Source: Candidatus Uabimicrobium amorphum
GTDB lineage: Bacteria > Planctomycetota > Uabimicrobiia > Uabimicrobiales > Uabimicrobiaceae
Reading direction: 5' to 3'
DNA: 64,000 bases
Assembly: GCF_009002475.1 (NCBI RefSeq)
Contig: NZ_AP019860.1
Coordinates: 868,001 to 932,000 of the forward strand
Made by a program: the position numbers and the translations under genes. Positions 14,867-42,424 of the stretch are shown here, piece by piece (the stretch's first letter is position 1; each line of letters starts with the position of its first letter). Below the pieces are notes generated by a model that had not been told where the DNA came from, ran no database searches, and saw nothing but the letters and a program-made list of their open reading frames with translations.

Positions 14867-14888
14867 TCTTACATAACATATGTATTGA

Positions 14889-16382
<1,494 letters not shown>

Positions 16383-16391
16383 AAAGAAGGC

Positions 16392-16805
16392 ATGAGCGAC
16401 AAAAAAATCAAATTTCTCATCACCACACCAGAAGGTGCAGCAGTTACCGAAACTATTAATTGGTGCGTTCTTCCCGCGGTAGATGGTGAATGGGCTATAA
16501 AATATGACCACGCTCCTGTTGTTCTGTTACTCGGCCAAGGAACTCTACGTATCAACACCGATGCGTGGAAATATTTCCATGTAAGATCAGGTATTGCTCA
16601 TATTGGCAACAATGAAGTGAATATCATATGTGACTCCGCTATAGATGCTTCCAAGCTTTCGGAAGATGAATTGCAGGGACATTTAAAAGAGCTTTTAGAG
16701 CAATCTCCTACTGATGCAAAAGAAAAAAGCAAGTTGCAGAAGTCTATTACTGAGGTAAAATCAAAACTACATACCTTACAGCAAATGCAACAAGTTTCCG
16801 CCTAA
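16392..16805 (+). CDS. atpC: ATP synthase F1 subunit epsilon
   Basis: The epsilon subunit (137 residues) couples gamma to the c-ring and can inhibit ATP hydrolysis. The N-terminal beta-sandwich shows the usual P.DGEWAI...HAPVVLLLGQGTLRI pattern, and residues 90-135 form the C-terminal two-helix region. It is the last gene of the operon, 9 bases after atpD, and a strong terminator overlaps its stop codon. Confidence 0.93.
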   Translation: MSDKKIKFLITTPEGAAVTETINWCVLPAVDGEWAIKYDHAPVVLLLGQGTLRINTDAWKYFHVRSGIAHIGNNEVNIICDSAIDASKLSEDELQGHLKELLEQSPTDAKEKSKLQKSITEVKSKLHTLQQMQQVSA

Positions 16806-21148: not shown

Positions 21149-22156
21149 CTAAATTTTTTTATAAGCAATAATGAGTGATCGTCCTCCGACATGCTCTTTT
21201 ACTTCAATGTCGCGAAATCCATTTTGTTGTAGGCGCTCACAGTACTGTGATTGAGTACTTTCGCCACCGCCATCGGTGGACACTAGCATATCAAGAGATA
21301 GTAGTGAAGTAAACAGTGGTCCGCTTCCATCTTCGGCGAGGAAGTTTTCGGTAATAAGAAGCATTCCTCCCTCAGGTAGAGCCTCATAGCACTTTTCGAT
21401 TAATTGTAACTGAATTTCCGTGGACCAATCGTGTAGTACCCAACCGAGATAAATGACATCGAATCCTGATGGCAATTGTTCTTCTAAGAAATTTCCGCTG
21501 TGAAAGGCAATATTGGTGTCATATTTTTCGGTAAATTCTCGGGAGATTTGGCACACTTCTTCTAGATCGTAAACTGTGGTTTGCATGTGTGGATATTTTT
21601 TGTGAATAATATCACATAAAATCCCTGTCGCTCCCCCAACATCGAGAATGGCTTTACGTGAAGAAAAATCGACCACCTCGGCAAGTGCTTTGGCGACTTG
21701 TTCATTAAAAAAATGCATCGTTTCCATAAATTTTCGCAAACGTTGTGGGTCTTTATAAAGCGTAGCGAAGTGCCCCTCGGCAGAACCAGTGGTTTGTAAC
21801 CAGCGATTGCTATTTTCGCGAATAGCGTCTGTCAAGTTGAGCCACAGTGGGTTGACATCGCACACATGGTGAAACAAGTTTCCCATGAACGCAGGGCTAC
21901 TTTCTACTAAAAGGGCATTGGTCGCAGGGGTGTTTGCGTATTGTTCGTTTTCTTTATGCAGTAGGCCCAAAGCCACACTCGCGGTGAGTATTTTTTGGGT
22001 CGACTCCTCGGGGGCAGATATTTGTGTCGCCACTTCCTGCAAAGTTGCAGACTGTTGTAGTTTTTCGAATATCTTTAGTTGTAAGCATGTTACGACGACT
22101 TGAAATTTCCAACTACCAATCAAAAGGTCTTGAACCAAAGCAAACGACTTATCCAT
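21149..22156 (-). CDS. SAM-dependent O-methyltransferase of the PKS cluster
   Basis: The 335-residue protein has the small-molecule O-methyltransferase layout (PF00891-type): an N-terminal winged-helix dimerisation domain (VTCLQLKIFEKLQQ...) and a C-terminal Rossmann domain. The SAM motif is ILDVGGATGILCDII at about 165, the acidic YDLEEV loop follows, and GWVLHDWS supplies the usual catalytic-region His. Its start overlaps the PKS stop by 8 bases, with AGGAGAGG inside the PKS end, so it is translationally coupled. In prodiginine pathways a similar enzyme (PigF/RedF) methylates the hydroxypyrrole made by KS plus PLP release, which fits the neighbour's domain set (inference). Confidence 0.85.
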   Translation of the reverse strand: MDKSFALVQDLLIGSWKFQVVVTCLQLKIFEKLQQSATLQEVATQISAPEESTQKILTASVALGLLHKENEQYANTPATNALLVESSPAFMGNLFHHVCDVNPLWLNLTDAIRENSNRWLQTTGSAEGHFATLYKDPQRLRKFMETMHFFNEQVAKALAEVVDFSSRKAILDVGGATGILCDIIHKKYPHMQTTVYDLEEVCQISREFTEKYDTNIAFHSGNFLEEQLPSGFDVIYLGWVLHDWSTEIQLQLIEKCYEALPEGGMLLITENFLAEDGSGPLFTSLLSLDMLVSTDGGGESTQSQYCERLQQNGFRDIEVKEHVGGRSLIIAYKKI

Positions 22157-25100
22157 ATTCCTCTCCTAATTTTATTAAAATTTCAATGGTTTTTTGTATC
22201 TGTTGCGTAGAATGGTTGGTGTTGACAAAGAAACGCAGGCGCGCTTGCGTTTTGGGAACTGCAGGATAACCGATGGGCATGACGTTAATACCTTGTTCTA
22301 GTAGCTTTTGTGAAATGTGGATACATTTTTCGATAGATCCGAGAATGATAGGTATCACCGGAGAGTCCTGTGAGGGACCTGTATTCAAGCCTGCCTCTTT
22401 GGCCAATCGTAAAAAGAGAGCAGCATTTTCCTGTAGCTGTGCCACGCGTCGCGGTTGTTTCTTAATTGTGCGTATAGCACTCAAGGCCGCCATCGTATTG
22501 GCCGGTGAAATCGTTGCGGCAAAAATGTACCCAGGAACAGTGAATTTCAAATAACGCATCAAATCGCTTTGTCCTGCCAAGTAGCCTCCACAACTGGCAA
22601 GAGCTTTGCTAATGGAACTCATCCACAAATCGACTTCTAAAGGATCTATGGCAAAGTATTCACTAATGCCACGTCCTGTTTTCCCTAAGGTACCCATCGA
22701 GTGCGCTTCATCGACGAGTAGCCACGCGCGATGTTTGCGTTTGACTTCGAGTATCTGTGGTAGAGGGGCAATATCTCCGTCTTGGCTATATACTCCTTCA
22801 ATCGCGATGAGAACACGACGATACTGATGGCGAATAGTGGTTAAAATTTTGTCGAGCATTTGCCAATCGTTATGTGGAAAAGAACGATATTTCGCTCCGG
22901 AGAGTATCGCACCTTGGGCAACGCTGTTGTGAATCAGTTGATCGTGGATAATTAAATCTTCTGTAGAAAACAAATGTCCTACCGCGGTAACATTTGTCGC
23001 ATGTCCGCTGGGAAAAACCATGGCGTCGTGTGTACCAATAAAGCTTGCGATTTCGTTCTCTAACTGACGATGAATAGGAGTATCTCCCATCAACAACGGA
23101 GATGCAGAAGCCGAAGTTCCATAGAGCGCAACGGTTTGTTGCACATCGTTGATAATTTCTGACTCACCGGTTAATGACAGATAATCGTAGCTGGCAAAGT
23201 TGATCACCTCTTTACCGTTGACTGTGGTGGTGATTCCGTGTTGCGATTCGTGAATACGCCGGTAGGGATTTTCTCCTTGTGGAAAAAAAGGCGACTTTTG
23301 CAAAGATTTGTATTCTGGCCAGTTTTTAAAGTCGCTATCCTCATGAGAAACGTTTTGTTTTGCGACAAGGATTTTTTGTGGCGTAGGGTTGTCGTTTGTG
23401 AGCTGTTTATACAAAATACCAACAGTAGTTGCCGTAGCTAGGTCCTTTATTTTGATATTTTTAAATGGTGTCAGACTCATTATTTTATTCTGTAAATTTA
23501 CGATCATAAGCGAGTCAAAACCCAAATTCTCCATGAAATGGTCGTTTTCATATATTTCATCGACAGGAAAACCACTCACCTCCGAAATCGCACCAATAAG
23601 TAAGGTATATTTATCCTGTCCATCCTGTAAATCCTGTCCAATATTTACATCCCGTAAATCTCCCCCCACATCCCGTAAATCTCTCTTTACAGAAACGCTT
23701 TGATGAATATCGCGAATCAAAGCATTTTGTTGTTCGATCATTCCTAGCATCTTACTGTAAGAGTCGACGCTCTCTGTAGAAGAGTCACCAATACTCTTTA
23801 ACCAATAAGAGGAATGGTGAAAAGAATAGTGCGGAATGGGCACTAGATTATTTTCATGCGCTCGGTAAATATTTGACCACTGTAGATGGAGTCCGTGACG
23901 ATATAGATGTCTCAATGTAGACGCAAGCGTTCTCCATGAATTTTTATGATGATAATATAGTGACAACGCGTGTGGTATACTCTTTTTTACAAGTGCTGAT
24001 AGCACCGGGCGTGGTCCAATCTCTAAAAATATATTTGTACCTTGTTGTCGCAAAAATTGCACACCGTCGCTAAAACGAACCGTTTCACGTAAATGTTTTC
24101 TCCAATAACTAGCGTCCATTTGCGTTGCAGACTGTCCCGTAACATTCGAGACAATATTTATTTGTGGCGCATGGTAAGTAATCGCGGCTATTTGCTGTTC
24201 AAAAGAGTCGAGTATGGAGTCTAAAATAGGTGAATGAAAACCATGGGTTACTTGTAGCCATTTGTATGGTAATTGTGGGTGATGCGCGAGGTAATCGCGC
24301 AAGTGTTGTTCACTGCCGGACAGAACGGTATTTTGTGGACCATTGATCGCTGCAATGGAAATATGTTCGTTTATCGTAATTTTTTCATGGGGTTTTTCGA
24401 TCGCCACCATTGTACCACAATCTTTTAGGTCCTTCATGAGTTGCGCGCGCACCGCGATGATTTTTAACGCATCCTCTAAGGAAAATACTCCAGCAACATA
24501 GGCGGCAGCATATTCACCTAGGCTATGTCCCATCACCCACGAAGGTTTTATTCCCCAGCTTTGCCACAAAGAAAAAAGCGCCACTTCAAAAGAGAAAAGA
24601 GCTAGTTGCGCACACACAGCGTCTTGCTGTAAATAGTGATCGTTGTCGGCGTTGGTCAATAAATCGACAAGCGATACATCGGTGTATTGCTTGCAAATTT
24701 GCGCGCATGCATCTATTTCCGTGCGGAATACCTGATGGTTTTCATAGAGGTCTTGTCCCATACCAGGAGCCGTGCTCGCTTGTCCGGTGAATAATAGAGA
24801 CACTTGCGCATTGTCTTGTGTTGCGCAAATACTTTCTGTATTTATATCGCATATTTTGTGGTGCAAGTCTTCGCAACTCTTGGCAGTGGTTGCCCAACGA
24901 TAAATAAAATGGTTGCGACCAGAATTGGCGGAGTAACAAATATCCCGTAGAGAATCTGTGGTATCTTGCAAATAGGCTTGCCACTTTTGTAGTAATTGAC
25001 GTAGGGCATTTTTGTCGCGTGCAGAAACACAAAAAACTTCGTGTTCGCGTGGACTTGATGGCAATGATGACGTGGCCGAATTACTTAAAACAATGTGAGC

Positions 25101-28100
25101 ATTGGCTCCGCCAAAACCAAGAGAACTTACCCCTGCACAGCGCTTTTCGTTTTTCCACGGTTCGGACTGCTGGGGAATGGTAAACGTTGTTAAGGCGTCT
25201 TGCAATAACGGATTTAGATTTGTGGCATACATTTGTGGAGGTATTCGTCGATGGTGAATGCACAGTACCGTTTTGATAAGTCCCGCAACGCCGGCCGCAG
25301 CCTCCAGGTGACCAATGTTTGCTTTGACAGCACCTAAAAAACAAGGTGTGTTGCGTTGTTGGTATATTTCGTGAAGAGCATTTATTTCAATGGGATCTCC
25401 CAAGGGAGTACCTGTGCCATGAGTTTCGATGTAATCAATGTCTTGTGCGCGAATGTTGGCAAAACGCAAAGCGCGGTTCACCACATGTTGTTGCGAATGT
25501 GGATTGGGGGCGGTTAGGCCATTGCTTTGCCCATCCTGGTTGACGGCCGAACCACGAATCACGGCAAGAATGTTATCCTGATGGCGAATGGCGTCATCTA
25601 GGCGTTTTAAGACAACCATTCCACAACCTTCTCCTCTAACATAGCCATCGGCTTCGGCGCTGAAGGTTTGGCACTTGAAATGAGGAGAAAGCATGTTTTT
25701 ATGTTGCAAGGCGTGATGAAAAGAGCCACTCAGAATTACGTTAACTCCGCCTGCGATTGCCATCGAGCATTCTGCGTTACGCAGGTTTTGACATGCAATA
25801 TGGATGGCGGTTAAAGACGAAGAACACGCTGTGTCAATTGCCATGCTCGGACCATGCAGGTCCAATAAATATGAAATGCGATTTGCGGCGATACTGAGAG
25901 CATTACCGGTAAGAGAATGTTCGTTAATCGTAGAAGACAATGGCATGTGCAATTGAGAATAGTCCCAACTACTGATACCAATAAAAATGCCAACATCTGT
26001 GCCGCGAATTTTTTTGGGAGGAATTCCCGCACTTTCCAACGCTTGCCACGTTACTTCGAGGAGTATTCTTTGTTGTGGATCAATAAATGGCACTTCTTTG
26101 GGGGCAATTCCCCAAAATACCGGGTCAAACTGATCCACATCGTCAATAAATCCTCCGGAAAATGACGATAGAGATTTGGCGGCAAAACGCTGTTGCGGAT
26201 ACTTCCTAATGGCATTTTGTCCGTTCATTAGAAATTGCCAGTACTCATCGACATTGTTAGAACCGGGAAAACGACACCCCATTCCGACGACGGCTATGGG
26301 TTGTTGCGTAATCGTTGGTGTTGCCTCTCGTGATATTGGACGATATTCTAATGCCGATGAATTGTTGGCGGATAAAAAAGAGGCGAGTGATGCAATTGTC
26401 GGGTATTCCCACATGACTGTTGAATTCAATGTGCAATTGAGCCAGTTTTGCAATTCACCTGACAACTCGATGAGCCTTGAAGATCCTAAACCATAACGGG
26501 AAAAGGGGGCGTGGGAATCTATACGTGTATCAATCCCCCAACTTTGCAACTTGGCGATCAACCATTGTTCAATTTCACCAGCGGATTTCTGGCTATTCGT
26601 TTGTATTATGGGATTTTTCCACGAATGCAAAGTGGTTAATTTGCCCTCAATAAAAAGTGTGCGGCATAAAGAACGCTGAATTTTGCCGCTGGAAGTTTTG
26701 GGGATGGTTTGCGGTGCGATTAACACGATTGCCGCAACCTCAATTTCATAATAACTGCTGACTTGTTGGAGAATCTTGTCTATGATATCGGTGTACGCGA
26801 ACTCAGTGGAATTGATTTCTTGTAGAATAACGAGATGTTCTTCGTCGTCTACTTCAATGGAAAACGCTGCGCCACAACCACTACGTAAAGAGGGATCACT
26901 TTCTTCGACAACATACTCGATATCTTGTGGATAAAAATTACTTCCGCGAACAATGATCATATCTTTGTAACGACCAGTGATGTAAAGTTCTCCGTCCTTA
27001 ATAAAGCCAAGGTCACCACTACGAAAAAATGGTCCTTTTTTGGTGTCCGCAGTATATTGTTCAAACTTTTCGGTATTTGCGGCACTATTATTCCAATATC
27101 CAGGAGATACGCTTGCATTTTTTATCCAGATTTCTCCTTCATGCTGTTCGTTGCATTCTTTCATGGTTTGTGGATGGACAATGATGACTTCTCCACGAGG
27201 CGTACCACCACTGATGACTTGTTTTTGTGTTGTCGCGTTTTGTCCACGATAATCTTTGAGAAAATGAGCGCGTCGATATTTCTCTTTAGGATTACCACCA
27301 CTGACAATGAGGGTCGCTTCTGCCATGCCATAGGCTGGAGACAGTGCTTGTTGTGAAAATTCACATTCTTTGAAGGCTTGGTAAAAGTCATCCATAGTTT
27401 TTTGGCGAACTGGCTCGGCAGCGTTTGCCGCGATGCGCCACGTTTTAAGCGAAATTTGCTTTTTTTGTGCGGCATTAATTTTTTTTACACACATTACATA
27501 AGCAAAATTGGGCGCATAAGAGGTTGTACCGCCATACCTATAGATTGCTTGTAACCACCGGAAAGGCTTTTGTACAAAACTTTCCGGTGACATTAAAATT
27601 TGGGTATATCCATTGAAAATTGGGTGGATAATCCCCGTAAACAGCCCCATGTCATGAAACATTGGTAGCCAACTCACTCCGATATCTTGCTCTGTTTTTG
27701 GAAAAATATCTTTTTCAATACTTGCATTGTGTATAATGTTGTTATGAGTGACCATAACTCCTCGCGGGTTACCTGTAGAACCAGAGGTATACTGCAAAAA
27801 GGCAACGTCTGCCTGTATTTGTGGTGAATTTTGTAAGTCTTTTTCTATGATAATCGTATCGATCGCTATTGGGTTCGAAATGTGAATGTTTGTGTCGTTA
27901 AAAACGCGATTTATTGTTTGTATATGTTGACTATTTGTTAGAATAATCTTTGACCGTGAATTTTCAATAATGGATTTGAGTCGTGGCAAGGTTCGCTTCA
28001 TACGATGAGGTTGAGGCGGGTATGCTGGAACCGCAATTACTTCGGCGTATAAACAACCTAAAAAACCACATATATAATCTATTCCTGAAGGAAATAATAA

Positions 28101-28283
28101 CAGCGCTGTTTCATTTTTATAGTTAGATAAAGATTTAGCGATAGATTGGACGCGAAGACACAGCTCATGGTATGTCAGGCGCGTTTCTTGTTGCTCTCCA
28201 TCTTCTAGGAAGATAAAGGCCGTCTTACGCGGTGTTTTTTGTGCTCGGGAAAAAAGAATATCTATGATGTTTGTTGTTGTCAT
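22149..28283 (-). CDS. FAAL-ACP-KS-AT-ACP-AONS polyketide synthase
   Basis: This is a single-module synthase of 2044 residues. Domains (approximate residues): fatty-acyl-AMP ligase 5-565 (QYTSGSTGNPRG); ACP1 with GLGSS at 599; KS 661-1066 with Cys in DTACSSSL (818), ETHGTGT and NIGHLEAAAG, all intact; AT 1158-1440 with GHSLGE (1253) and HGFHS, suggesting malonyl; ACP2 with GFDSL at 1589; and a C-terminal alpha-oxoamine synthase 1690-2040 with the PLP Lys in SSISKALASCGG (1891). KR, DH, ER and TE are absent. Predicted action: an acyl starter is activated, extended once by malonyl, and released by decarboxylative condensation with an amino acid, giving an aminodiketone able to cyclise to a hydroxypyrrole. 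This merges the roles of PigI, PigG, PigJ and PigH. The start has GGAAAGAG upstream. Confidence 0.9.
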   Translation of the reverse strand: MTTTNIIDILFSRAQKTPRKTAFIFLEDGEQQETRLTYHELCLRVQSIAKSLSNYKNETALLLFPSGIDYICGFLGCLYAEVIAVPAYPPQPHRMKRTLPRLKSIIENSRSKIILTNSQHIQTINRVFNDTNIHISNPIAIDTIIIEKDLQNSPQIQADVAFLQYTSGSTGNPRGVMVTHNNIIHNASIEKDIFPKTEQDIGVSWLPMFHDMGLFTGIIHPIFNGYTQILMSPESFVQKPFRWLQAIYRYGGTTSYAPNFAYVMCVKKINAAQKKQISLKTWRIAANAAEPVRQKTMDDFYQAFKECEFSQQALSPAYGMAEATLIVSGGNPKEKYRRAHFLKDYRGQNATTQKQVISGGTPRGEVIIVHPQTMKECNEQHEGEIWIKNASVSPGYWNNSAANTEKFEQYTADTKKGPFFRSGDLGFIKDGELYITGRYKDMIIVRGSNFYPQDIEYVVEESDPSLRSGCGAAFSIEVDDEEHLVILQEINSTEFAYTDIIDKILQQVSSYYEIEVAAIVLIAPQTIPKTSSGKIQRSLCRTLFIEGKLTTLHSWKNPIIQTNSQKSAGEIEQWLIAKLQSWGIDTRIDSHAPFSRYGLGSSRLIELSGELQNWLNCTLNSTVMWEYPTIASLASFLSANNSSALEYRPISREATPTITQQPIAVVGMGCRFPGSNNVDEYWQFLMNGQNAIRKYPQQRFAAKSLSSFSGGFIDDVDQFDPVFWGIAPKEVPFIDPQQRILLEVTWQALESAGIPPKKIRGTDVGIFIGISSWDYSQLHMPLSSTINEHSLTGNALSIAANRISYLLDLHGPSMAIDTACSSSLTAIHIACQNLRNAECSMAIAGGVNVILSGSFHHALQHKNMLSPHFKCQTFSAEADGYVRGEGCGMVVLKRLDDAIRHQDNILAVIRGSAVNQDGQSNGLTAPNPHSQQHVVNRALRFANIRAQDIDYIETHGTGTPLGDPIEINALHEIYQQRNTPCFLGAVKANIGHLEAAAGVAGLIKTVLCIHHRRIPPQMYATNLNPLLQDALTTFTIPQQSEPWKNEKRCAGVSSLGFGGANAHIVLSNSATSSLPSSPREHEVFCVSARDKNALRQLLQKWQAYLQDTTDSLRDICYSANSGRNHFIYRWATTAKSCEDLHHKICDINTESICATQDNAQVSLLFTGQASTAPGMGQDLYENHQVFRTEIDACAQICKQYTDVSLVDLLTNADNDHYLQQDAVCAQLALFSFEVALFSLWQSWGIKPSWVMGHSLGEYAAAYVAGVFSLEDALKIIAVRAQLMKDLKDCGTMVAIEKPHEKITINEHISIAAINGPQNTVLSGSEQHLRDYLAHHPQLPYKWLQVTHGFHSPILDSILDSFEQQIAAITYHAPQINIVSNVTGQSATQMDASYWRKHLRETVRFSDGVQFLRQQGTNIFLEIGPRPVLSALVKKSIPHALSLYYHHKNSWRTLASTLRHLYRHGLHLQWSNIYRAHENNLVPIPHYSFHHSSYWLKSIGDSSTESVDSYSKMLGMIEQQNALIRDIHQSVSVKRDLRDVGGDLRDVNIGQDLQDGQDKYTLLIGAISEVSGFPVDEIYENDHFMENLGFDSLMIVNLQNKIMSLTPFKNIKIKDLATATTVGILYKQLTNDNPTPQKILVAKQNVSHEDSDFKNWPEYKSLQKSPFFPQGENPYRRIHESQHGITTTVNGKEVINFASYDYLSLTGESEIINDVQQTVALYGTSASASPLLMGDTPIHRQLENEIASFIGTHDAMVFPSGHATNVTAVGHLFSTEDLIIHDQLIHNSVAQGAILSGAKYRSFPHNDWQMLDKILTTIRHQYRRVLIAIEGVYSQDGDIAPLPQILEVKRKHRAWLLVDEAHSMGTLGKTGRGISEYFAIDPLEVDLWMSSISKALASCGGYLAGQSDLMRYLKFTVPGYIFAATISPANTMAALSAIRTIKKQPRRVAQLQENAALFLRLAKEAGLNTGPSQDSPVIPIILGSIEKCIHISQKLLEQGINVMPIGYPAVPKTQARLRFFVNTNHSTQQIQKTIEILIKLGEEYG

Positions 28284-28322
28284 TTTACTCTTTCCACTTA
28301 ATGTTAAAAAAGGACCAGCGAA
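28284..28322. promoter_or_regulatory. 39-base divergent intergenic region
   Basis: The PKS and oxidoreductase start codons are only 39 bases apart on opposite strands. It holds GGAAAGAG (minus strand) and AAAAAGGA (plus strand) as ribosome-binding sites, leaving no room for two separate promoters, so promoters probably lie inside the coding regions. Confidence 0.35.
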
Positions 28323-29426
28323 ATGAAATCATTGAAAAATAGATTACACAACGCTATTGATCTTGCTGCCACAGCGCCATCTTCACACAATAGTCAACCA
28401 TGGGAAATTGTTTTATTTGACAGTCGCGAAGCTCTTTCGTCCCTTGAATGTTTCGGAATCAATTTGTCTTCCTCGGCACTTTATATTGCCGTTTGTTTGA
28501 ATAAAGAACGTCAACTACGTTCTTTAGATTGTCACCATCTAGAAATGGCGTTGAGTATTGGTATTTTTCTAGAAAACCTAAGTTTGGCATTACATTCTCA
28601 GAGGTGCTGTGCCACGTTTTGCTGGGCAAATTCACAAAATGTTGTTATTAAGGGTATTTCTTCAAATTGGAAACCGTTGGCCATTATTGCCGTTTCTGAT
28701 AGCGATCACGACTTTGATACGGCATTTTTGGACAAACGTATCACCAATCGCGGTCCATATCAGCAACAACGCATTTCTTCCGATGTCCAGCAACAACTTA
28801 TCAATAGCAATTCTCTGTTGTTTAACGATGCCAAGGAGCATTGTCGCATCTGTTTTGTCGAAGATAGCGAAAAAATTTCACGTATAGCAAATTTTGTCTC
28901 TACTCACGCTAAGTTGGAATTCACACATAGTAAAGCGTGGCGCGAAACATATAAATTCGTTAGCTTTGGTGCACAAAAAGAAATAGGTCTACCCATTACC
29001 CAATTATTTGGGCCATTGTCCACGTTGAAAAAATATTGGTACCGCGTATTGTTTTCACCTTTTGTAATGAGTTTTTTAAAACACACGAAATTTCCAGAGA
29101 CAATCGCTGCACAGTTTGGACAACTCGTGGCAACAACCCCCGCTCTTTTGTATGTAAATTTTCATGAAGAGAACCCGGATACTCTTACCCTACTCAAAGG
29201 CGGAGCGCTGTTATTTCAATTGTGGTTGAACGCAGCCAAAGAAGGGATTAGTTTTCACCCCATGAGTATTGTTTTGCAACACACTGATATTTGCAAAGCA
29301 TTTGTTAAGGACCACGGTCTTCCTCGTGGGCGTTCCATGTTTTTTAGTCGTGTAGGATACCCACAATTTGAATTTCCTCCCGCACCAAAAAGAAAAAATC
29401 TATCACGTGAAATACACACTATATAA
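28323..29426 (+). CDS. Nitroreductase-family oxidoreductase
   Basis: The 367-residue protein has the nitroreductase/Acg-like pattern: ATAPSSHNSQPW near residues 16-27 (flavin-site segment), a middle RxTNRGPY, a QLVATTPALLYV strand and LLKGGALLFQLWLNAAKEGISFHPMS at 290-320, matching the FMN-binding helix G.A...L.L.A...G....P. FMN-dependent oxidation or reduction is expected. It is divergent from the PKS gene. The prodiginine oxidases PigM/RedV are, as I recall, from a related fold, and dehydrogenation of a pyrroline or of a hydroxymethyl-pyrrole would fit the cluster. Substrate and direction of the reaction are inferred. Confidence 0.75.
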   Translation: MKSLKNRLHNAIDLAATAPSSHNSQPWEIVLFDSREALSSLECFGINLSSSALYIAVCLNKERQLRSLDCHHLEMALSIGIFLENLSLALHSQRCCATFCWANSQNVVIKGISSNWKPLAIIAVSDSDHDFDTAFLDKRITNRGPYQQQRISSDVQQQLINSNSLLFNDAKEHCRICFVEDSEKISRIANFVSTHAKLEFTHSKAWRETYKFVSFGAQKEIGLPITQLFGPLSTLKKYWYRVLFSPFVMSFLKHTKFPETIAAQFGQLVATTPALLYVNFHEENPDTLTLLKGGALLFQLWLNAAKEGISFHPMSIVLQHTDICKAFVKDHGLPRGRSMFFSRVGYPQFEFPPAPKRKNLSREIHTI

Positions 29427-29435
29427 TTTTATAAA

Positions 29436-29488
29436 CGATCCCGTTCCCGATCCCGTTCCCGATCCCGTTCCCGTTCCCGATCCCGTAA
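29436..29488. repeat. 12-bp tandem repeat GATCCCGTTCCC
   Basis: About four imperfect units of GATCCCGTTCCC, mixed with a 6-bp subunit, lie directly after the oxidoreductase stop. No coding or structural role is visible. Confidence 0.8.
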
Positions 29489-29599
29489 GAGAACAAAGTT
29501 ATTTCAGTGTTACTGAGACGGAACTACACGAGTGTGTCATTCCCGCGTAAGCGCATACACGTCAAGCTAAGCGTGAAAGCTTCTTAATAAACACTCACA

Positions 29600-29688
29600 A
29601 ATCCATGTCATTCCCGCATAAGCGGGAAACCAGCAATGTAAAGTGGACTTGTAAACGCTGGATCCCTGATCAAGTCAGGGATGACACC
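29600..29688 (-). repeat. Dispersed palindromic repeat, copy A (reverse orientation)
   Basis: Two hairpin modules, TCCCGCATAAGCGGGA and ATCCCTGATCAAGTCAGGGAT, are separated by a TTGTAAACGCTGG-type spacer. In reverse complement it aligns with 43176-43256 and 56301-56382 across both hairpins and spacer. It lies between convergent genes. Confidence 0.8.
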
Positions 29689-29704
29689 TAGGGGCAGAGA
29701 TAAC

Positions 29705-29752
29705 ACCCGAGGTCAGGGACGACACCCGAGGTCAGGGACGACACCCGGGGTA
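29705..29752. repeat. 19-bp tandem repeat next to palindromic element
   Basis: AGGTCAGGGACGACACCCG is repeated about twice, with partial units each side; it shares GGGA-GACACC with the end of the neighbouring palindromic element and may have grown from it. Confidence 0.6.
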
Positions 29753-29809
29753 GATTTATAGTTTCATGCAACACCCCTCGGTTTCAAACGCTTTTATCAC
29801 ATAAGCAAC

Positions 29810-30397
29810 TTACTCTTCCGCAGTGTACGGTTCCTCTTTCACCATATGTCCTACAATCAATTTTAGAAAAAGGATAGGAATAAACCACTCAAACCCTGGA
29901 GTAAGTGTGAAAATATAACTATCGATAAAGATAGCACCGCATAAGATGAGAACGGCCACACAGCGTTGTAGATAGAGTGCTGTAAAAGCCACAATGACAG
30001 CGCTAAAACACAAATATCCGTAAACAACGCAAAAGTATTTCCAGTCCATGGCGCGAAATAACCACGCGACGAGAAAGGGATATGCTGCATGCCCAACGAC
30101 AAAGAGAATGCGACTTTGACGACTACTTTGTGCACGATGGTACCAGCGTTTTGTCGGGGAAGTCGCATTGCATACGGCTCCTCCTACCAAGTCAAAGACC
30201 AACAACGTTGCGATGATGGTCTGCAAAAGTGACCACTGTGGATCTTTGTATACGCTAAATGCAATCATCATTGTTGCAGCAACAGTCCCTGAAGCGAAAA
30301 CGACAACTAGTTCGGTTTTGCTCATTCCTGGTCCGACGACTTTTTCTATTTTCCCCATGATTCCAGGTCTAAACTGTGGATAATTCCAACGTTGCAT
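29810..30397 (-). CDS. Polytopic membrane protein of the biosynthetic cluster
   Basis: ATG 30397 is chosen, with AAGGA nine bases upstream; an upstream in-frame codon would overlap the preceding gene. The 195-residue product has about six hydrophobic helices. A polar conserved-looking stretch, VFDLVGGAVCNATSPTKRWYH (from about residue 68), carries Asp, Asn, Arg and His in or near the membrane, suggesting a small membrane enzyme or a ligand-binding integral protein. I do not recognise the family. It is the last gene of the minus-strand operon with the ligase, KASIII and kinase-aminotransferase, so tailoring, export or membrane retention of the product are possible roles. Confidence 0.65.
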   Translation of the reverse strand: MQRWNYPQFRPGIMGKIEKVVGPGMSKTELVVVFASGTVAATMMIAFSVYKDPQWSLLQTIIATLLVFDLVGGAVCNATSPTKRWYHRAQSSRQSRILFVVGHAAYPFLVAWLFRAMDWKYFCVVYGYLCFSAVIVAFTALYLQRCVAVLILCGAIFIDSYIFTLTPGFEWFIPILFLKLIVGHMVKEEPYTAEE

Positions 30398-30408
30398 GCC
30401 TTTTTCCT

Positions 30409-33033
30409 TTATAAAACAAAAATACCATCTGCTGTCATTTCGCAAAGGCTTTTTTCAAATGCAGCGGTTATTTTTTCCAAGTCCTCCATGTTGTGCGCGG
30501 CATTGAGCATTAAAGTATGTAGCTCCGGCATGTAAATTCCGTGTTTGCGCATGTAGTAAGCTAGGGCTAAATTAGCCTTAAAGTTACTACCAGACTGTTT
30601 TTCTCGGTAAAATTTACTTTTTTTATGACTGAAGGTGAAAGAAAAAATGGAACCGTAGCCGCTCACTTGTAGAGAGATTTTATTGTTTTGGGCAATTTCT
30701 TCTAGTTGTGTTGTGAGCCAATTTGTTTGCTCATGTAGTTGTTCGTATATGTGTTTGTTTTCTCTTAAGTAGGACAACGTCGCCAGTCCTGCCGCACAAG
30801 ATAGCGAATTTCCACTCATCGTTCCGCCAACAAAAGTCTTTTGTTCGTAATCAATAAACGGATCTCCAGAGCTTTTGGCCACATCAATAAGCTCTTTTTT
30901 CCCGGTGACAGCACCACATGGTAATCCACCACCGATGATTTTTCCCAGGCATGTCAAATCTGGTTCTACGTCTGCGACTACCTGAGCTCCGCCATAGTGA
31001 ACGCGAAAGCCAGAGACGACTTCATCGAAAATGAGAGGGATGTCATGTGTGGAACAAAATTCGCGAAGTTGTTGTAAAAATTCGTGGTCGATTTTCGCCA
31101 TGGATGTCGGTAGCGGTTCACATATGATCGCGGCAAGCTCGTCTTTACGCAAGAGTAATTGTTCCAATGCCCCAGGATCTCCATATTGCAAAACCAGAGT
31201 ATTGTTCACCACACTTTTTACACTACCCAATGTTCCGGCGATGGGGTCGGGATTTTTTTTCTGTCCGCTAAAGCGAAACCACGAACTGACCATTCCTTGG
31301 TCGGAAAAACCATGGTAGTGACCTTCAAATTTGGCAATCATATCTTTTTTACGGTAGGCGCGGCAAATTCGCAGGGCCTGAATAACCGCTTCGGTTCCCG
31401 AGTTCGAGAAAATAACCTTTTCGGCACTTGGAAAGGCCTCGCTAATGATTTTGGCGAGCTCTATTTCCGGAAAATGCCCCAAAGCATTAATGCTTCCCTG
31501 TTGCGAAGCTTTTTGTAGAGCTTCGTTAATGACGGGATGCGCATAGCCGAGTATGTGTGGACCATAACCACAAGAAACATCGATATAGGTGTTGTTGTCG
31601 ATATCTTCTATTTTGCAGCCGTAAGCTTTTTTCACTACCAATGGGTAAGTACTGGGAAAAAAGTAGCGGTCAAAATGTGTGGGAGCGACAAGATGTTGTT
31701 TCGCGGACTTTGTTACCTGCAAAGAACGCGGTATGGTTTCTTGAAAATAACGATCGAATTTTTGCTTGACCTCATCACTCATGTAAGGAGAGAAACGGTC
31801 AGTAAATTTTCGTGCGTTTCCCCATATGTCTATTTGCGGATCTATCTGGCAGGCAAATCCTTCGCATGATAAGAACACCAGTTCGACCTTGGTAAAATTG
31901 GTGGTATAGCAAGCATTATATTTTTGTAGTACTTGGTTGACGTCTTTGAAGTACTCCATCGTCGACCAACGATTTGTTTTGTCGTGAAAATGATACTTTA
32001 ATGTATTGTACAAATCTTGGCGGTATTGTTGTATTTTCGCGTGTATATCTTGTTTGTCGGTGACAAAGTGTTCGGTAAATCTGTCAACGGCGATGTCCCA
32101 TTCATTGCGTGTACAGGCATAATAAAAAGAAGATAGCCCCCATTTCTCACGCTCGCTTAGGATGGTGACTATGCCAAAGTCCAAAAAGATTAGCTTTCCG
32201 TCTTCCGTAAAAAATATGTTCCCTGGATGAGGATCTCCATGGCTGAAACCATCTAAATACAACATGGTATAAACAGAATCTTGTAAACGTCTTGCAAGTT
32301 GGTCTTTTGGAAAGTTAACGCGGGAAAATTCTTGGCCGCGAATTGCAGTAATATATTCCAACACAAGTATGTTTTGTGAGCAAAATTCATCGTATGCTTT
32401 GGGAATGACGATATATGGATGCCCTATGAAGTTTTTGTATAGAACTTTTTGATGCGCCAACTCTCGCACCATATCCGTTTGCTCTACGAGTAATTTTTTG
32501 ATTTCGTTGTAGCGTTCACGCAAACGCATTTTTTTCAAAATAGGAAAAAAAAGTAGTAACCACCACAACAGAATGTTGAGTAGGAAAAAGTTTCCGGTGA
32601 GTTGCTGCTTTACATTTTTTTTAACTATTTTTACGGCAACAGTTTCACCACTTTGTAAAGTGGCTTTGTGAACTTGGGCAATGGAAGCACTTGCCAGAGC
32701 TTCGAAGTCAAAATCACTAAATATTTTTGGGTAGTCGTTGCCCAATTCGCGGATGAGTAATTTCTTGACATACGCTTTGTTATCTCCGGGAACATTGTCC
32801 TGTAAAATGGCGAGCTTACTGGTAATGTTTTGGGGAATTAAGTCGCTACGGGTGGCTAAAATTTGCCCCATTTTTATATAAAATGGTCCCAATGATTGCA
32901 AACAATTGCAAATATGGTGGCCAAAACGATCTAAGCGCTCATCACGTTTGCGTATAAAAAAGTACACAAAAATTAACTTTGTCGCTACCCACGGAACTAT
33001 TATGAAAAATTTGCAAAGGTGTAGTATTCTCAT
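30409..33033 (-). CDS. ABC1/UbiB-type kinase fused to class III aminotransferase
   Basis: Start ATG 33033 lies 4 bases after the KASIII stop; upstream codons would overlap that gene. The product is 874 residues. Residues 1-400 are an ABC1/AarF/UbiB atypical kinase: a membrane-prone N-terminus, IKMGQILATRSDLIP near 55, ALASASIAQVHKA, HGDPHPGN near 267 and LDFG near 283, all key motifs intact. Residues 440-874 are a glutamate-1-semialdehyde-type aminotransferase: SNSGTEA near 543, HYHG, DEVVSGFR near 671 and the PLP Lys in CLGKIIGGGLP near 696. UbiB proteins support lipid-soluble quinone synthesis; the aminotransferase could make a long-chain amine (compare PigE/TamH). I know of no described fusion of these two domains. 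Confidence 0.85.
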   Translation of the reverse strand: MRILHLCKFFIIVPWVATKLIFVYFFIRKRDERLDRFGHHICNCLQSLGPFYIKMGQILATRSDLIPQNITSKLAILQDNVPGDNKAYVKKLLIRELGNDYPKIFSDFDFEALASASIAQVHKATLQSGETVAVKIVKKNVKQQLTGNFFLLNILLWWLLLFFPILKKMRLRERYNEIKKLLVEQTDMVRELAHQKVLYKNFIGHPYIVIPKAYDEFCSQNILVLEYITAIRGQEFSRVNFPKDQLARRLQDSVYTMLYLDGFSHGDPHPGNIFFTEDGKLIFLDFGIVTILSEREKWGLSSFYYACTRNEWDIAVDRFTEHFVTDKQDIHAKIQQYRQDLYNTLKYHFHDKTNRWSTMEYFKDVNQVLQKYNACYTTNFTKVELVFLSCEGFACQIDPQIDIWGNARKFTDRFSPYMSDEVKQKFDRYFQETIPRSLQVTKSAKQHLVAPTHFDRYFFPSTYPLVVKKAYGCKIEDIDNNTYIDVSCGYGPHILGYAHPVINEALQKASQQGSINALGHFPEIELAKIISEAFPSAEKVIFSNSGTEAVIQALRICRAYRKKDMIAKFEGHYHGFSDQGMVSSWFRFSGQKKNPDPIAGTLGSVKSVVNNTLVLQYGDPGALEQLLLRKDELAAIICEPLPTSMAKIDHEFLQQLREFCSTHDIPLIFDEVVSGFRVHYGGAQVVADVEPDLTCLGKIIGGGLPCGAVTGKKELIDVAKSSGDPFIDYEQKTFVGGTMSGNSLSCAAGLATLSYLRENKHIYEQLHEQTNWLTTQLEEIAQNNKISLQVSGYGSIFSFTFSHKKSKFYREKQSGSNFKANLALAYYMRKHGIYMPELHTLMLNAAHNMEDLEKITAAFEKSLCEMTADGIFVL

Positions 33034-33037
33034 AATT

Positions 33038-34081
33038 TTACTCGTATATAAAGCTGTAACAAGCAAAAGACATACCAGCACTACCTACCCAACAAACAAT
33101 TCTATCTCCAGGGACAAGGGTGTTGTCTTTTTTTGCTAAATACATTGCGGCGGGAACAGAAGCCGAAACGAGGTTGCCGTGTTCCGCGTATATGTGATAT
33201 ATTTTATCTTGAATACCTACGACTTCTCCAAACTTATCCCATGCTTTTTGCGAAGAAGCGTGCGGAAATACACACTTGATTTCCTGTGGCGGGACACTCA
33301 ATTTTTTAAATAGTTCAACCACTTCTGGGAATCCCTCTTTGTGCAGTTCTCTTCCATAAGAGGTAAAACAATAGGCACCGTTTTTACCGATTCTTTCGCA
33401 TTCTTTTGAGTACAATTTGTAACCGACAGAAGGAATTGTACACAAATCAGCGAGGTCTGGTCGTGAAGAGAAATGCCATTCCCATTCTTGGGAAGAGGGC
33501 TCAAGTAGTGTTGCTACTGCAGCATTACCTACGGTATAGTTAGGTATGGTCCACTTTGTCTGCTCGGGGGTGTACAAACGATAATTACCTGGAAACAGTG
33601 CATCACCTGTTACGTTGACAAACTCTCCGTTGACAACAAGGATGCGTTTGTAGGTATTTGTTTTAAAAAAACTATAAGCGGTTTGAAGGGCTCTTGTCCA
33701 GCTCATGCATGCGTCGAGAATGTCAAAACACTGTACGCGTTTCATGTCCATCATGTGGGCGACCATGTATGATTGGCCCGGTTCGAGAAAACCTTTTCCC
33801 ACCCCCACATATATCAGAAGCTCTATGTCGTCTTTGTGGCAGTTACCTTTCTCAAGTGCTTCGTCGATGGCATTTTTAATGTGATCTATTGGCTTTTCGT
33901 TGGGTTGTAGCCATCTTCTTTTCTGTGCCCCAGAGCCATACAATTTGGTTTCTATTTCATTTAAGGTTTCGGACAAATTCCCGCGAAAAGTATAACGACT
34001 GTGCTCTTCAATGAGCGCAACGGTCTCTTTGACTGTAATTTCTTGTTGGGGAAATGATGTTCCTATTGATGTGATTCTCAT
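33038..34081 (-). CDS. KASIII-type beta-ketoacyl synthase
   Basis: The 347-residue thiolase-fold enzyme has the FabH-like triad: Cys in LDACMSW (about 123), His in FPHASS (about 271) and Asn in EHGNLVSASVP (about 301). Residues after the Cys (TRALQTAY) differ from housekeeping FabH, so a specialised substrate is likely: acyl chain initiation (as RedP in undecylprodigiosin), or ester or C-C bond formation. It overlaps the upstream ligase by 4 bases (ATGA) and the downstream fusion gene follows 4 bases after its stop, so the three are tightly coupled. Confidence 0.85.
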   Translation of the reverse strand: MRITSIGTSFPQQEITVKETVALIEEHSRYTFRGNLSETLNEIETKLYGSGAQKRRWLQPNEKPIDHIKNAIDEALEKGNCHKDDIELLIYVGVGKGFLEPGQSYMVAHMMDMKRVQCFDILDACMSWTRALQTAYSFFKTNTYKRILVVNGEFVNVTGDALFPGNYRLYTPEQTKWTIPNYTVGNAAVATLLEPSSQEWEWHFSSRPDLADLCTIPSVGYKLYSKECERIGKNGAYCFTSYGRELHKEGFPEVVELFKKLSVPPQEIKCVFPHASSQKAWDKFGEVVGIQDKIYHIYAEHGNLVSASVPAAMYLAKKDNTLVPGDRIVCWVGSAGMSFACYSFIYE

Positions 34082-36723
34082 GCGTTGTTCCTCTCGAGAT
34101 ATACTTTTCCGTTATTGCCATCTACCGTTATGATGTCACCTGTTTTGATGGTTTGTGTCGCAATTTCTGTATTTACAACCGCTGGAATACCTAGCTCACG
34201 AGCAACAATCGAGCTATGCGAAAGTACAGAACCTATATCGGTGACAACAGCCGTTGCCAAGTTAAAAAGAGGTGTCCAGGCGGTGTCCGTAAAATGGGTG
34301 ACTAAGATTTCTCCTTTGGTAAATTCGTCTATTTGTTGCTCTAAATCTAAAATAATTCTTGCTTTGCCTTTGATGTATCCTACGCTCGTTCCAAGACCGG
34401 TAATGGTTTTGCCGCTAAAACTTTTCACTTGTTGTTGTGCAGGGTGCCAACTGCCGATGATGGTTAGGGGCGGTGCTGGTATTTTTTGGTTGTTGATATG
34501 ATTTTTGTGACTTTTTTCTATTTTTTCGGGTGTGAAAATGTTTTTGGCTGAATTTTTCTCGGCGACATAGTCCAATATATCCTCGTAATCAATGAATATA
34601 CCTTGTTCTTCACTTTTCAGAACATGCTCTTCGCTCACCAAACGCCGTATTACCTCATGAACGAGAGTGCGTATCATCCATATTCCTTGGATATAACCCA
34701 TACGCGTCGCTTCGCGCCAGTGGCTCATTTTAAGATAACTGTTGATGAGAAATTTCAACATTTTGCGTTTAAACCACGACAAGTCTTTGAGTACATCTTT
34801 GGTGACTTGTTCTCTTTCACGACGCCTTTTTTGAACCTCGCCCACATGGTCTTCCTTGATGTAGGTTTTCATCATGTAAAATGCATAACTAGGATCGTCT
34901 AGCCATCGCGGAGTTGCAAGATCCATTTCTCTTTGACCACGCACGCCATGTGCACGTAGAAACGCTTGTACTTTGTTTAAAAATTTCTCAGCGGAAGGGA
35001 TTTTACACAAGGCGGGATAAATTTCTCGCGGCTCTTTGTCGAGAATAATGTCACTAACCTCTGCAACTTTTTGTGCTTCTGTCGCTAAATCAGCGAGGGC
35101 AAACGAAACTTCTAGGGTGCGCAAGTCAGAGGCTCCAGCCTTTATTTTTTGTTTGATATCAGCCCCGCGACTATCATCAATCCATTGATCGCATAATAGG
35201 GAAACAATGTCGTAGATGATAAAACTGTTGAAGTAAGGTGGTCCCATCAATTCGCTACTTTTGTGAAAATATTCATACGCCTCTTTAAAGGCGCTGTGTA
35301 GCTGTGGTAGAGAAAGGGTGGTTAAATCTACAGCGCGAAACTTATCGAGGACTTCTAAACGGCGAGCGATGGCTTTTTTGGCACGACGTTTATACACAAG
35401 CATTAGCCGCGATTGATAACCAAAGTAAAACAGATTGGTAAATAAATTTTTGAGTCCTGTTGGCCCCGCTCCATATGGGCCTTTGTAGTTGGATAAATCC
35501 ATTTCGGCACTGGCATAACGACATACAAATTTACTTTGGTCACGAAATATTGCGGATTGTGTATAGAGCCATGCCCAATACGATGCGTTGACGTAGGGGC
35601 GTCCGTACAATGTCAACATATATTTTTGTGGCTCCCCTGTGTCGTAAAGTCCAAGTGTTCGCAATAGTTTTCCGTGGGTATGATATTGATAGTGTTTGGC
35701 AAAAGACATGCCCAGTGGCGAAAACATTCCCGTCCACGATTCGCCAATGTCAACCATCGTGTATACGGCCTTAGTATCTTCTTGTTGTTGTTGAAAACTT
35801 TGGTGTTCTATTGCGGTAATCGGCCTAGTTTGTAAAATGTAAAACTTTTGATTGGCAGAGGCCCATTCTATATCCTGAGGAGAGTTGTAAATATCACGGA
35901 TATTTTTGGCAATTTTTGCGAGTTCCAAAGCCTCTGTGTCACTCAGAGATGGTAAACTTCTTTGGTCTTCAGGTATTTTTACCGTGTGCATAGTGTTTTC
36001 TACTGCGGAAGACATCATGAGTTTGTAGCGAATGGTTTTGTGTGTAATGTGATCGTTACTGACGACAAATGAATCTGTTGCGGTTTTGCCAGAAACAACG
36101 GCTTCTCCCAATCCCCAACAAGATTCGACAAGTGTCTCTTGGTCGTTTCCGGTGATGGGGTTTTGTGTGAAAACAACACCGGCTTTTTGCGCTGGAACCA
36201 TTTGTTGTACAATAACCGCCATTTCTCCTGGGTCATAAGACTCGTGCATTTTCATTCGGTAACTAAGTGCACGATAAGACCACAGTGACGCCCAGCATTT
36301 AAGAATTGCGGCGCTAATTTTTTCCTCACCCACCACGTTCAAAATGGTTTGGTATTGACCAGCAAAAGATAGGCTTTGGGTGTCTTCATTGATTGCGGAT
36401 GATCTTACGGCGACGGCTTTGTTTTGCAATAAATCATTATGTTTTTTTATTTCACTTGTTACCGAGAGTGGTAGGGCTTCTTGGGAAATCTTATGTTGAA
36501 TGGATTGGCAAAAATCTTGAATGGTGTTACTATCGTATTTATACTCTTTGATGATGGTGTCAATGCCTGTAGTTTTCATAAATTCACGATAGCAGTCACA
36601 TGTAATGACGAATCCACTGGGAACGGTGAAACCTTCTTTCAATAGACAACTCAATTGAAAGGCTTTGTTGCCCACAATAGGTTGATCTTTTTTGGTAATA
36701 TTTTGTAGGTTTAAAATAGTCAT
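34078..36723 (-). CDS. PEP-synthase-like ligase resembling PigC/RedH
   Basis: The 881-residue protein has an N-terminal ATP-grasp domain (1-330; NKAFQLSCLLKEGFTVPSGF, AVRSSAINEDTQSLSFAGQY, WGLGEAVVSG, IEWA...ILQTRPIT). The middle domain has MVDIGESWTGMFSPLG and FVCRYASAEMDLSNYKGPYG. The C-terminal swivelling domain has the phospho-His in SVLSHSSIVARELGIPAVV (His about 834). Length and middle-domain motifs match, as I recall them, the prodiginine/tambjamine condensing enzymes PigC/RedH/TamQ better than PEP synthase or rifampin phosphotransferase. Predicted role: ATP-dependent condensation of an aldehyde-bearing pyrrole with an amine or second pyrrole. It is first gene of its operon, with a 316-base upstream region. 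Confidence 0.75.
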   Translation of the reverse strand: MTILNLQNITKKDQPIVGNKAFQLSCLLKEGFTVPSGFVITCDCYREFMKTTGIDTIIKEYKYDSNTIQDFCQSIQHKISQEALPLSVTSEIKKHNDLLQNKAVAVRSSAINEDTQSLSFAGQYQTILNVVGEEKISAAILKCWASLWSYRALSYRMKMHESYDPGEMAVIVQQMVPAQKAGVVFTQNPITGNDQETLVESCWGLGEAVVSGKTATDSFVVSNDHITHKTIRYKLMMSSAVENTMHTVKIPEDQRSLPSLSDTEALELAKIAKNIRDIYNSPQDIEWASANQKFYILQTRPITAIEHQSFQQQQEDTKAVYTMVDIGESWTGMFSPLGMSFAKHYQYHTHGKLLRTLGLYDTGEPQKYMLTLYGRPYVNASYWAWLYTQSAIFRDQSKFVCRYASAEMDLSNYKGPYGAGPTGLKNLFTNLFYFGYQSRLMLVYKRRAKKAIARRLEVLDKFRAVDLTTLSLPQLHSAFKEAYEYFHKSSELMGPPYFNSFIIYDIVSLLCDQWIDDSRGADIKQKIKAGASDLRTLEVSFALADLATEAQKVAEVSDIILDKEPREIYPALCKIPSAEKFLNKVQAFLRAHGVRGQREMDLATPRWLDDPSYAFYMMKTYIKEDHVGEVQKRRREREQVTKDVLKDLSWFKRKMLKFLINSYLKMSHWREATRMGYIQGIWMIRTLVHEVIRRLVSEEHVLKSEEQGIFIDYEDILDYVAEKNSAKNIFTPEKIEKSHKNHINNQKIPAPPLTIIGSWHPAQQQVKSFSGKTITGLGTSVGYIKGKARIILDLEQQIDEFTKGEILVTHFTDTAWTPLFNLATAVVTDIGSVLSHSSIVARELGIPAVVNTEIATQTIKTGDIITVDGNNGKVYLERNNA

Positions 36724-38683: not shown

Positions 38684-38702
38684 TACTGCAGAAAGGGCAG
38701 AT

Positions 38703-40373: not shown

Positions 40374-40384
40374 GGAGAAGAAGA

Positions 40385-42412: not shown

Positions 42413-42424
42413 AAAGGCATTGTT

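Follow-up and report, generated by a model that had tools for sequence, protein, structure and literature searches.

A candidate gene cluster for a monopyrrole tambjamine-like compound in the planctomycete Candidatus Uabimicrobium amorphum

Gene content of the locus

The window, that is, the whole stretch of 64,000 nucleotides analysed here from Candidatus Uabimicrobium amorphum (bases 868001-932000 of one contig of 9,503,417 bases, in a genome whose completeness is given as 86.65%), contains between positions 21149 and 36723 seven genes that had been proposed, from the letters of the sequence, to form a biosynthetic cluster with prodiginine/tambjamine-like logic. All seven open frames were confirmed at these coordinates, and the Pfam and NCBIfam profile searches used for domain assignment agreed with the proposed inventory (Table 1), as did the motifs, which were looked for in six of the seven proteins, all except the hydrophobic one, and were present there. 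Gene content, domain order, motifs, the ancestry of the ligase, synteny in a Microcystis genome, the lack of a match of RedW grade and a related module in Nocardia suggest, with moderate confidence, that the cluster makes a monopyrrole analogue of the tambjamines, in which a fatty acid would replace proline and the ligase would join a methoxypyrrole aldehyde to a lipid amine; the chemistry is predicted. No paper describing such a cluster was found in the literature searched, most subscription journals being outside its coverage.

The ligase and KASIII genes overlap by 4 bp, a gap of 4 bp separates KASIII from the UbiB-aminotransferase gene, and the genes for the polyketide synthase (PKS) and the methyltransferase (MT) overlap by 8 bp. 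The ATG at 33033 was taken as the start of the UbiB-aminotransferase frame (874 aa), because the GTG at 33081 would bring an overlap. The GC content of the cluster is 42.5%, compared with 39.9% in the left and 38.7% in the right flank.

Table 1. Genes of the predicted cluster and the adjoining candidate exporter genes (ACP, acyl carrier protein; KS, ketosynthase; AT, acyltransferase; FMN, flavin mononucleotide)
Feature	Positions	Strand	Basis
RedH/PigC-related ATP-dependent ligase, 881 aa, PPDK_N and PEP-utilizers domains; predicted final coupling enzyme	34078..36723	-	NCBIfam, tree, motif
KASIII-type ketosynthase, 347 aa	33038..34081	-	Pfam ACP_syn_III and ACP_syn_III_C
UbiB/ABC1 kinase-like domain fused to GSAM-type class III aminotransferase, 874 aa	30409..33033	-	Pfam ABC1 and Aminotran_3
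Hydrophobic accessory protein, 195 aa	29810..30397	-	No Pfam match; homologues near ligase genes
Acg/nitroreductase-family FMN enzyme; predicted hydroxymethylpyrrole-to-aldehyde oxidase	28323..29426	+	NCBIfam Acg subfamily, 112 of 199 bits
FAAL-ACP-KS-AT-ACP-AONS synthase (PKS), 2044 aa; predicted to make a 5-alkyl-3-hydroxypyrrole	22149..28283	-	Pfam domain order, motifs
PigF-like O-methyltransferase (MT), 335 aa	21149..22156	-	Best solved relative 7clf
LolA-like, FtsX, MacB/FtsX and ABC ATPase genes, divergent from the cluster; candidate exporter	37040..43111	+	Pfam

Ancestry of the predicted coupling ligase

The original prediction likened the ligase to the PigC type and set its phylogeny beforehand as a test against phosphoenolpyruvate (PEP) synthases and rifampin phosphotransferases (RPH). 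The NCBIfam models for RedH and PigC scored 818 and 808 bits, compared with 448 bits for the best PEP synthase model. Because these scores are below the curated cut-offs (1350 bits for RedH, NF052632, and 1300 bits for PigC, NF052631), the ligase is placed in a sister group and not in RedH or PigC proper. The swivelling-domain motif SVLSHSS was found at residue 832, and a ligase-like match is also present in a genome of the same family.

In a quick maximum-likelihood tree of 50 hand-picked rows, which held no verified Serratia PigC or TamQ and in which branches were supported by the Shimodaira-Hasegawa-like approximate likelihood ratio test (SH-aLRT), the ligases of the window and of Microcystis made up a six-member clade together with four proteins from metagenomes (support 99), and this clade was joined at 100 to a set consisting of 13 rows of RedH type and a single row from a planctomycete (genome G041). 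All rows named rifampicin phosphotransferase by JGI and most PEP-synthase-like rows were placed apart from this group; two long-branched rows (L031 and L062) adjoined it with weak support. With the RedH model, members of the six-member clade scored 773-886 bits and three other near relatives 1271-1377 bits. The idea of an ordinary PEP synthase or RPH whose likeness to prodiginine pathways is accidental draws on the PPDK_N and PEP-utilizers domains held in common and on the full-length PDB sequence matches, which carry PEP synthase names and include no PigC or RedH entry among 19. It was rejected as scarcely credible, since the RedH/PigC models are ahead by more than 350 bits, the neighbouring genes are PigF-like and RedV-like, and the tree refutes it as far as sequence can. 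These comparisons indicate that the ligase shares ancestry with the RedH-type prodiginine ligases, apart from PEP synthase and RPH.

Methyltransferase, oxidase and the proline starter

In prodiginine biosynthesis, RedN/PigH uses serine to form 4-hydroxy-2,2'-bipyrrole-5-methanol (HBM), which RedV/PigM oxidises to the aldehyde; methylation is carried out by PigF, and RedH performs the coupling (PMC11188435, PMC6667630). The best PDB sequence match of the window MT was 7clf (177.5 bits, E 3.7e-51), followed by 8tji, named RedM by its depositors (153.7 bits). The structure 7clf is PigF (PMC8895007), in which His98, His247 and Asp248 are essential, and all three positions are kept as His, His and Asp in the window MT. 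Both the top match and the conserved residues place a PigF-type O-methyltransferase in the cluster, in keeping with the capping role first proposed for it.

The oxidase, for which the nitroreductase family named in the original prediction was confirmed, corresponds in addition to the enzyme in the RedV position, a likeness that had been overlooked. It has a single match within its own genome. Relatives of the oxidase lie within 2 kb of RedW in all five RedH genomes in which both were searched, and about 1.4 kb from RedW in a sixth (G1408), while in G1235 the distance to RedH is about 18 kb; the PSSHN motif is kept in seven of seven aligned proteins. From this gene position, the enzyme is predicted to act as the counterpart of the HBM oxidase in the RedV/PigM position.

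The genes for oxidation of a proline starter, originally thought to be absent, were sought by a whole-genome score search for RedW, the proline-starter dehydrogenase, in which the best match in the 86.65% complete window genome reached 230 bits vs the cut-off of 650, while five of five positive genomes gave 679-703 bits. At that cut-off the RedW/PigA marker of a proline-derived bipyrrole starter was thus not found in the window genome, and the best match in the Microcystis genome (119 bits) was likewise below it. A PigJ/RedX double ketosynthase is absent from the cluster, to which that search was confined and in which the only KS domains are the one in the PKS and KASIII. Since a RedV-type oxidase and a PigF-like MT are present and RedW is missing by score, the aldehyde-forming and capping steps appear to be represented, and the proline starter does not.

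Conservation of the cluster in Microcystis

Named genomes were scanned over at least 80 loci, ligase relatives being taken as the best 120 of 2284 protein matches. Among the loci listed, the best match was a contig of a Microcystis aeruginosa metagenome-assembled genome (MAG), SFBL01000205.1 (L016/L104), which holds relatives of all seven cluster genes within about 18 kb; a chance grouping of the seven genes is therefore unlikely. Identities were 50% for the KS, 39% for the AT and 50% for the AONS domain of the PKS, 41% for a FAAL truncated at the contig end, 42% for a stand-alone FAAL-ACP, 48% for KASIII, 48% for the MT, 37% for the oxidase, 47% for the ligase, 32% for the hydrophobic protein and 59% overall for the UbiB-aminotransferase fusion (UbiB 54%, aminotransferase 64%). 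The Microcystis cluster differs from that of the window in three respects: its PKS is divided between two frames and interrupted where the contig ends, it has a further FAAL-ACP, and it encodes an additional protein of 180 aa. In the fusion tree, the Microcystis protein clusters with those of Nostoc and Scytonema (98), which disfavours a mis-binned non-cyanobacterial contig. In two metagenomic cases, relatives of the ligase and of the fusion have matching longest contigs (P0002/P0129, 19125; P0003/P0126, 20636).

Both sub-operons are thus found together in another genome, as the original prediction had anticipated. This bears on the alternative that two unrelated pathways are neighbours, with FAAL-PKS and MT making one compound and ligase, KASIII and UbiB-aminotransferase another. 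The minus-strand units are separated by about 1.5 kb, which is taken up by the divergent oxidase gene and about 0.4 kb of DNA rich in repeats, and the module that includes the UbiB-aminotransferase is found apart from ligase and PKS elsewhere, but the strand run on the Microcystis contig interleaves genes of both units (FAAL, KASIII, MT, oxidase, ligase, UbiB), and we regard this alternative as very improbable. On inspection by eye, the intervening DNA (window 29430-29750, flanked by the oxidase gene and the end of the neighbouring operon) shows short CCCGTT/CCGATC-like units in tandem as well as longer stretches that resemble repeats.

The FAAL, KASIII and UbiB-aminotransferase module

The class III aminotransferase domain of the original prediction was confirmed, although an N-terminal UbiB/ABC1 kinase-like domain in the same protein had gone unmentioned. 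Motifs of the fusion protein include KMGQ, HGDPHPGN, LDFG and LGKIIGGG. The aminotransferase scored 128 of 850 bits with the PigE model, and the union of aminotransferase and thioester reductase typical of TamH/PigE was not found, the fusion partner being ABC1/UbiB. In KASIII, motifs with Cys125, His274 and Asn303 are present, and identity to the Nocardia altamirensis homologue is 42%, compared with the 48% to the Microcystis protein. Its solved relatives by sequence include FabH, the ketosynthases 4v2p and CorB, and OleA-like entries. A role of KASIII as a RedP-like starter enzyme for the PKS was considered and rejected, as KASIII accompanies FAAL and UbiB-aminotransferase where no RedL was seen. 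The hydrophobic protein, for which Pfam gave no match, has homologues near ligase genes at L016 (34%), L149 (36%) and, weakly, L017.

Relatives of the fusion were taken as the best 120 of 1001 protein matches, and genomes were counted at E 1e-150 or better. The fusion is a broad yet patchy family: with the seeds counted, it occurs in 4 of 386 genomes from the phylum of Microcystis and in 17 of 118 Nocardia genomes. In the phylum of N. altamirensis (1 of 396) and in that of the window (1 of 392), the one genome that has it is the seed and the window genome, respectively. No paper on clusters with such a fusion was found in the literature searched.

The Nocardia survey covered 13 of 18 places besides N. 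altamirensis, in 11 of 16 other positive genomes, the five omitted being of a distant class or a fragment. The three-gene module was found at eight of the 13 loci, and at five of these eight the same stretch of 20 kb also contains a RedV-like gene and RedW; the other five loci (L168-L172) hold a more distant class of fusion (50-51% in the aminotransferase part) with no FAAL or close KASIII in 20 kb. In N. altamirensis, RedH (1542 bits) and RedW (678 bits) are over their cut-offs and are accompanied by the three-gene module and by a PigJ-like double KS (387 of 900 bits); RedL was not seen in the stretches read. With this genome included, nine Nocardia loci have the module and six of them adjoin prodiginine-core genes, the six corresponding fusion proteins forming one clade (99).

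Streptomyces presents another arrangement. RedH was over the cut-off in 15 of 343 genomes. In at least 13 of these, among the matches listed, a region matching the window PKS lies no more than 20 kb from RedH, and in the other two RedH is near a contig start. The AONS domain was seen in all six RedH genomes where it was covered (G102, G1184, G1390, G1392, G1314 and G1408). The UbiB-aminotransferase fusion was found in none of the 15, which gave three aminotransferase-only matches. By its distribution across these genomes, FAAL-KASIII-UbiB/aminotransferase is a separable module, and, because the Nocardia red loci carry it where the RedH Streptomyces have a RedL-type PKS, it may supply the partner of the ligase in place of RedL.

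At three cyanobacterial loci (L111-L113), FAAL, KASIII and the fusion occur together with no ligase match within the 20 kb read, and these loci are candidates for a lipid-amine pathway as yet without assignment. The genes neighbouring the module at L111 encode an FMO, a PEMT/ICMT-type methyltransferase, an ARD/cupin protein, a Rieske protein and a DUF3419 protein. Such loci bear on a further alternative within the same pathway class, namely that the KASIII/aminotransferase branch provides, in place of an amine for enamine formation, a beta-aminoacyl or aminoketone unit from which a second ring is formed ahead of the coupling step. A sequence match was obtained between the GSAM-type domain and 6kfm (E 1.7e-55), a domain of mycosubtilin synthase that aminates a beta-ketoacyl carrier protein, and the module stands without a ligase match at these three loci, with FMO, methyltransferase and Rieske genes at the annotated one. 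We nevertheless consider this alternative improbable, as no cyclising enzyme is evident and GSAM entries outscore the mycosubtilin domain.

The synthase

The domain order of the synthase was as originally described; that FAAL-ACP-KS-AT-ACP-AONS is also the architecture of RedL had been overlooked. The likeness was found by comparison of Pfam domains with those of RedL-locus proteins such as P0301. Relatives of the PKS and its AONS domain were taken as the best 120 of 3043 protein matches, and the AONS tree was built from a selection of them. The window AONS is 48-52% identical to 11 RedL AONS domains and 30-32% to four RedN domains, and AONS domains equally similar occur also in FAAL-ACP-AONS proteins, which are the majority among the matches listed. 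In the trees, the window AONS lies just outside the RedL group (94), and the window KS groups with P0257, P0269 and P0321 (98), which are FAAL-KS-AT-AONS proteins of 2146-2174 aa, apart from RedL; in neither tree is the window PKS nested within the RedL clade. Both trees led to rejection of the PKS as an ortholog of RedL proper or of the genome's own large PKS. The same genome contains a large modular PKS cluster (G000:C1:7240532-7281229), in which the reported match over a FAAL-KS stretch (7276529-7281229) runs through seven stop codons.

In ALAS enzymes, a Thr/Ser position in the active-site loop is linked to amino-acid choice. This position is Thr in 11 of 11 RedL domains, and Ser in the window, in Microcystis, in three of four RedN domains and in 23 of 25 other AONS proteins; the PLL loop motif is common to the window AONS and RedL.

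Proposed pathway and its alternatives

In the pathway that we favour, FAAL would activate a fatty acid and KS-AT would add one malonate, after which AONS would release the chain with serine, so that closure gives a 5-alkyl-3-hydroxy-2-(hydroxymethyl)pyrrole. The RedV-type enzyme would convert CH2OH to CHO and the PigF-type enzyme would methylate the ring hydroxyl, yielding as the ring half a 5-alkyl-3-methoxypyrrole-2-carbaldehyde, which corresponds to the bipyrrole aldehyde 4-methoxy-2,2'-bipyrrole-5-carbaldehyde (MBC) but has one ring instead of two. For the other half, KASIII may condense an activated acyl chain, and the UbiB-aminotransferase may aminate the keto product to a 2-aminoalkane or a beta-amino acid, the UbiB domain possibly helping to present the greasy substrate. 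The ligase would finally activate the aldehyde with ATP and couple the amine as an enamine.

The acyl starter, AONS release, O-methyl cap and amine coupling of the original prediction all fit the gene content, but the ancestry of the AONS domain is of RedL type. RedL of Streptomyces forms 4-keto-2-undecylpyrroline from a fatty acyl chain, malonate and glycine (PMC11188435, PMC6667630). An alternative of fairly low probability, although the likeliest of those weighed here, is therefore that AONS uses glycine as RedL does (PMC11188435), so that PKS and MT give a 5-alkyl-3-methoxypyrrole whose free C2 is the nucleophile, as in 2-undecylpyrrole for RedH. The ligase would then link this pyrrole, by prodiginine-like carbon-carbon coupling, with an aldehyde or imine from the oxidase or the KASIII/aminotransferase branch. 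The AONS identities, the place of the window AONS beside the RedL group and the shared PLL motif agree with this alternative. However, no RedK-like reductase was recognised by Pfam among the seven annotated genes (no RedK model was searched), a source of the aldehyde partner is not evident from the genes, the loop has Ser instead of the Thr of RedL, and the oxidase in the RedV position would be without its usual hydroxymethyl substrate. The presence of that oxidase is what favours serine.

Several observations weigh against the favoured pathway. The choice of amino acid is its weakest point, because the nearest red-cluster relative of AONS, RedL, uses glycine, whereas the pathway needs serine. 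RedL ancestry favours glycine, glycine would leave no CH2OH for the oxidase, and the loop Ser is a mere hint of serine use because 23 of 25 other AONS proteins also have it. The synthases of the window and Microcystis pair for KS (85) only, not for AONS, and the window MT is unlike the MT beside RedH in N. altamirensis, which is presumably RedI. The KASIII/aminotransferase pair of the window has no FAAL of its own, unlike those of Microcystis, Nocardia and the three other cyanobacterial loci, and the nearest other FAAL-like frame of the genome is far off (6678337, 455 bits, 1015 aa). Since the red-linked Nocardia fusion proteins form one clade, the six cases amount to about one event, and in the fusion tree, which was built without L112, the window, Microcystis and P0126 proteins are scattered among proteins of unknown context. 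AlphaFold models of KASIII and the hydrophobic protein (mean predicted local distance difference test scores of 50.9 and 52.1, the latter a six-helix model of low confidence) are too poor to use.

More tentatively, the cluster may represent a new branch of the tambjamine/prodiginine family, in which a single alkyl-methoxypyrrole aldehyde from a fatty acid is combined with a lipid amine from the module by a sister clade of coupling enzymes, the amine module, to which no function had been assigned, having been taken up separately by Nocardia bipyrrole clusters and by monopyrrole clusters of Microcystis and of a planctomycete from the cell-engulfing Uabimicrobium lineage. If so, prodiginine/tambjamine logic would extend to a scaffold of one lipid-bearing methoxypyrrole and a lipid amine, and the PigC/RedH fold would couple aldehydes other than bipyrroles. 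The product would be expected, by analogy, to be a membrane-active anion carrier, such a compound would occur in a planctomycete and a bloom-forming cyanobacterium, and the UbiB-aminotransferase fusion of many bacteria would acquire a testable function.

Comparison with known systems

The Streptomyces undecylprodiginine (red) cluster is like that of the window in the domain order of RedL, in a relative of the oxidase in the RedV position and in a related ligase, RedH. It differs in that the window genome lacks RedW by score, the window cluster lacks RedM, RedO, RedX and RedN genes, the window MT resembles PigF and is unlike the MT gene product found next to RedH, and the window adds a KASIII-UbiB/aminotransferase unit found in none of the 15 RedH Streptomyces. 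The Nocardia prodiginine-core clusters (N. altamirensis and five other loci) are like the window in the oxidase family, in the FAAL-KASIII-UbiB/aminotransferase unit and, as confirmed for N. altamirensis, in a RedH-type ligase. Unlike the window, all six have RedW, N. altamirensis also has RedX-, RedM- and RedN-like genes, indicating a bipyrrole core, and no RedL-type PKS was seen in the stretches read.

The cluster for tambjamine YP1 (tam) of Pseudoalteromonas tunicata resembles the window in outline, uniting a methoxypyrrole aldehyde and a fatty-acid-derived amine by a PigC-type ligase, which for the window is predicted from the genes. Both have an aminotransferase fusion; TamH consists of an aminotransferase and a thioester reductase (PMC9594044). 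The window fusion differs in joining a UbiB kinase domain to the aminotransferase and in being accompanied by KASIII, and the ring half in the window is predicted to be a monopyrrole. If the amine genes of the BE-18591 cluster were FAAL-KASIII-UbiB/aminotransferase, the amine unit would already be known. BE-18591 has an alkylamine tail. It is a tambjamine from Streptomyces, and its cluster is entered in GenBank as PP179500 (PMC10960970).

Neighbouring genes and related loci

Both the Microcystis cluster and that of the window adjoin transport genes: HlyD, MacB/FtsX and ABC genes come after the former, and the MacB/FtsX/ABC set lies divergently beside the latter. These window genes (Table 1) are possibly the exporter of the cluster and are its weakest part. 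Elsewhere in the window, genes for gamma, beta and delta/epsilon-type subunits of ATP synthase occur at 14003-16805.

Two contigs of G041, another genome of the window's phylum, carry related genes. One locus (L150, C50:8000-21339) encodes RedN-like (52%), RedW-like (49%), RedX-like (40%) and RedM-like (46%) proteins with a partial ligase match, and on the second contig (L149, C99) a ligase gene lies beside genes for an aromatic prenyltransferase (PTase_Orf2), a DUF6041 protein and a protein of the same hydrophobic family. Judged from these genes, the G041 loci likely belong to a prodiginine- or tambjamine-type cluster.

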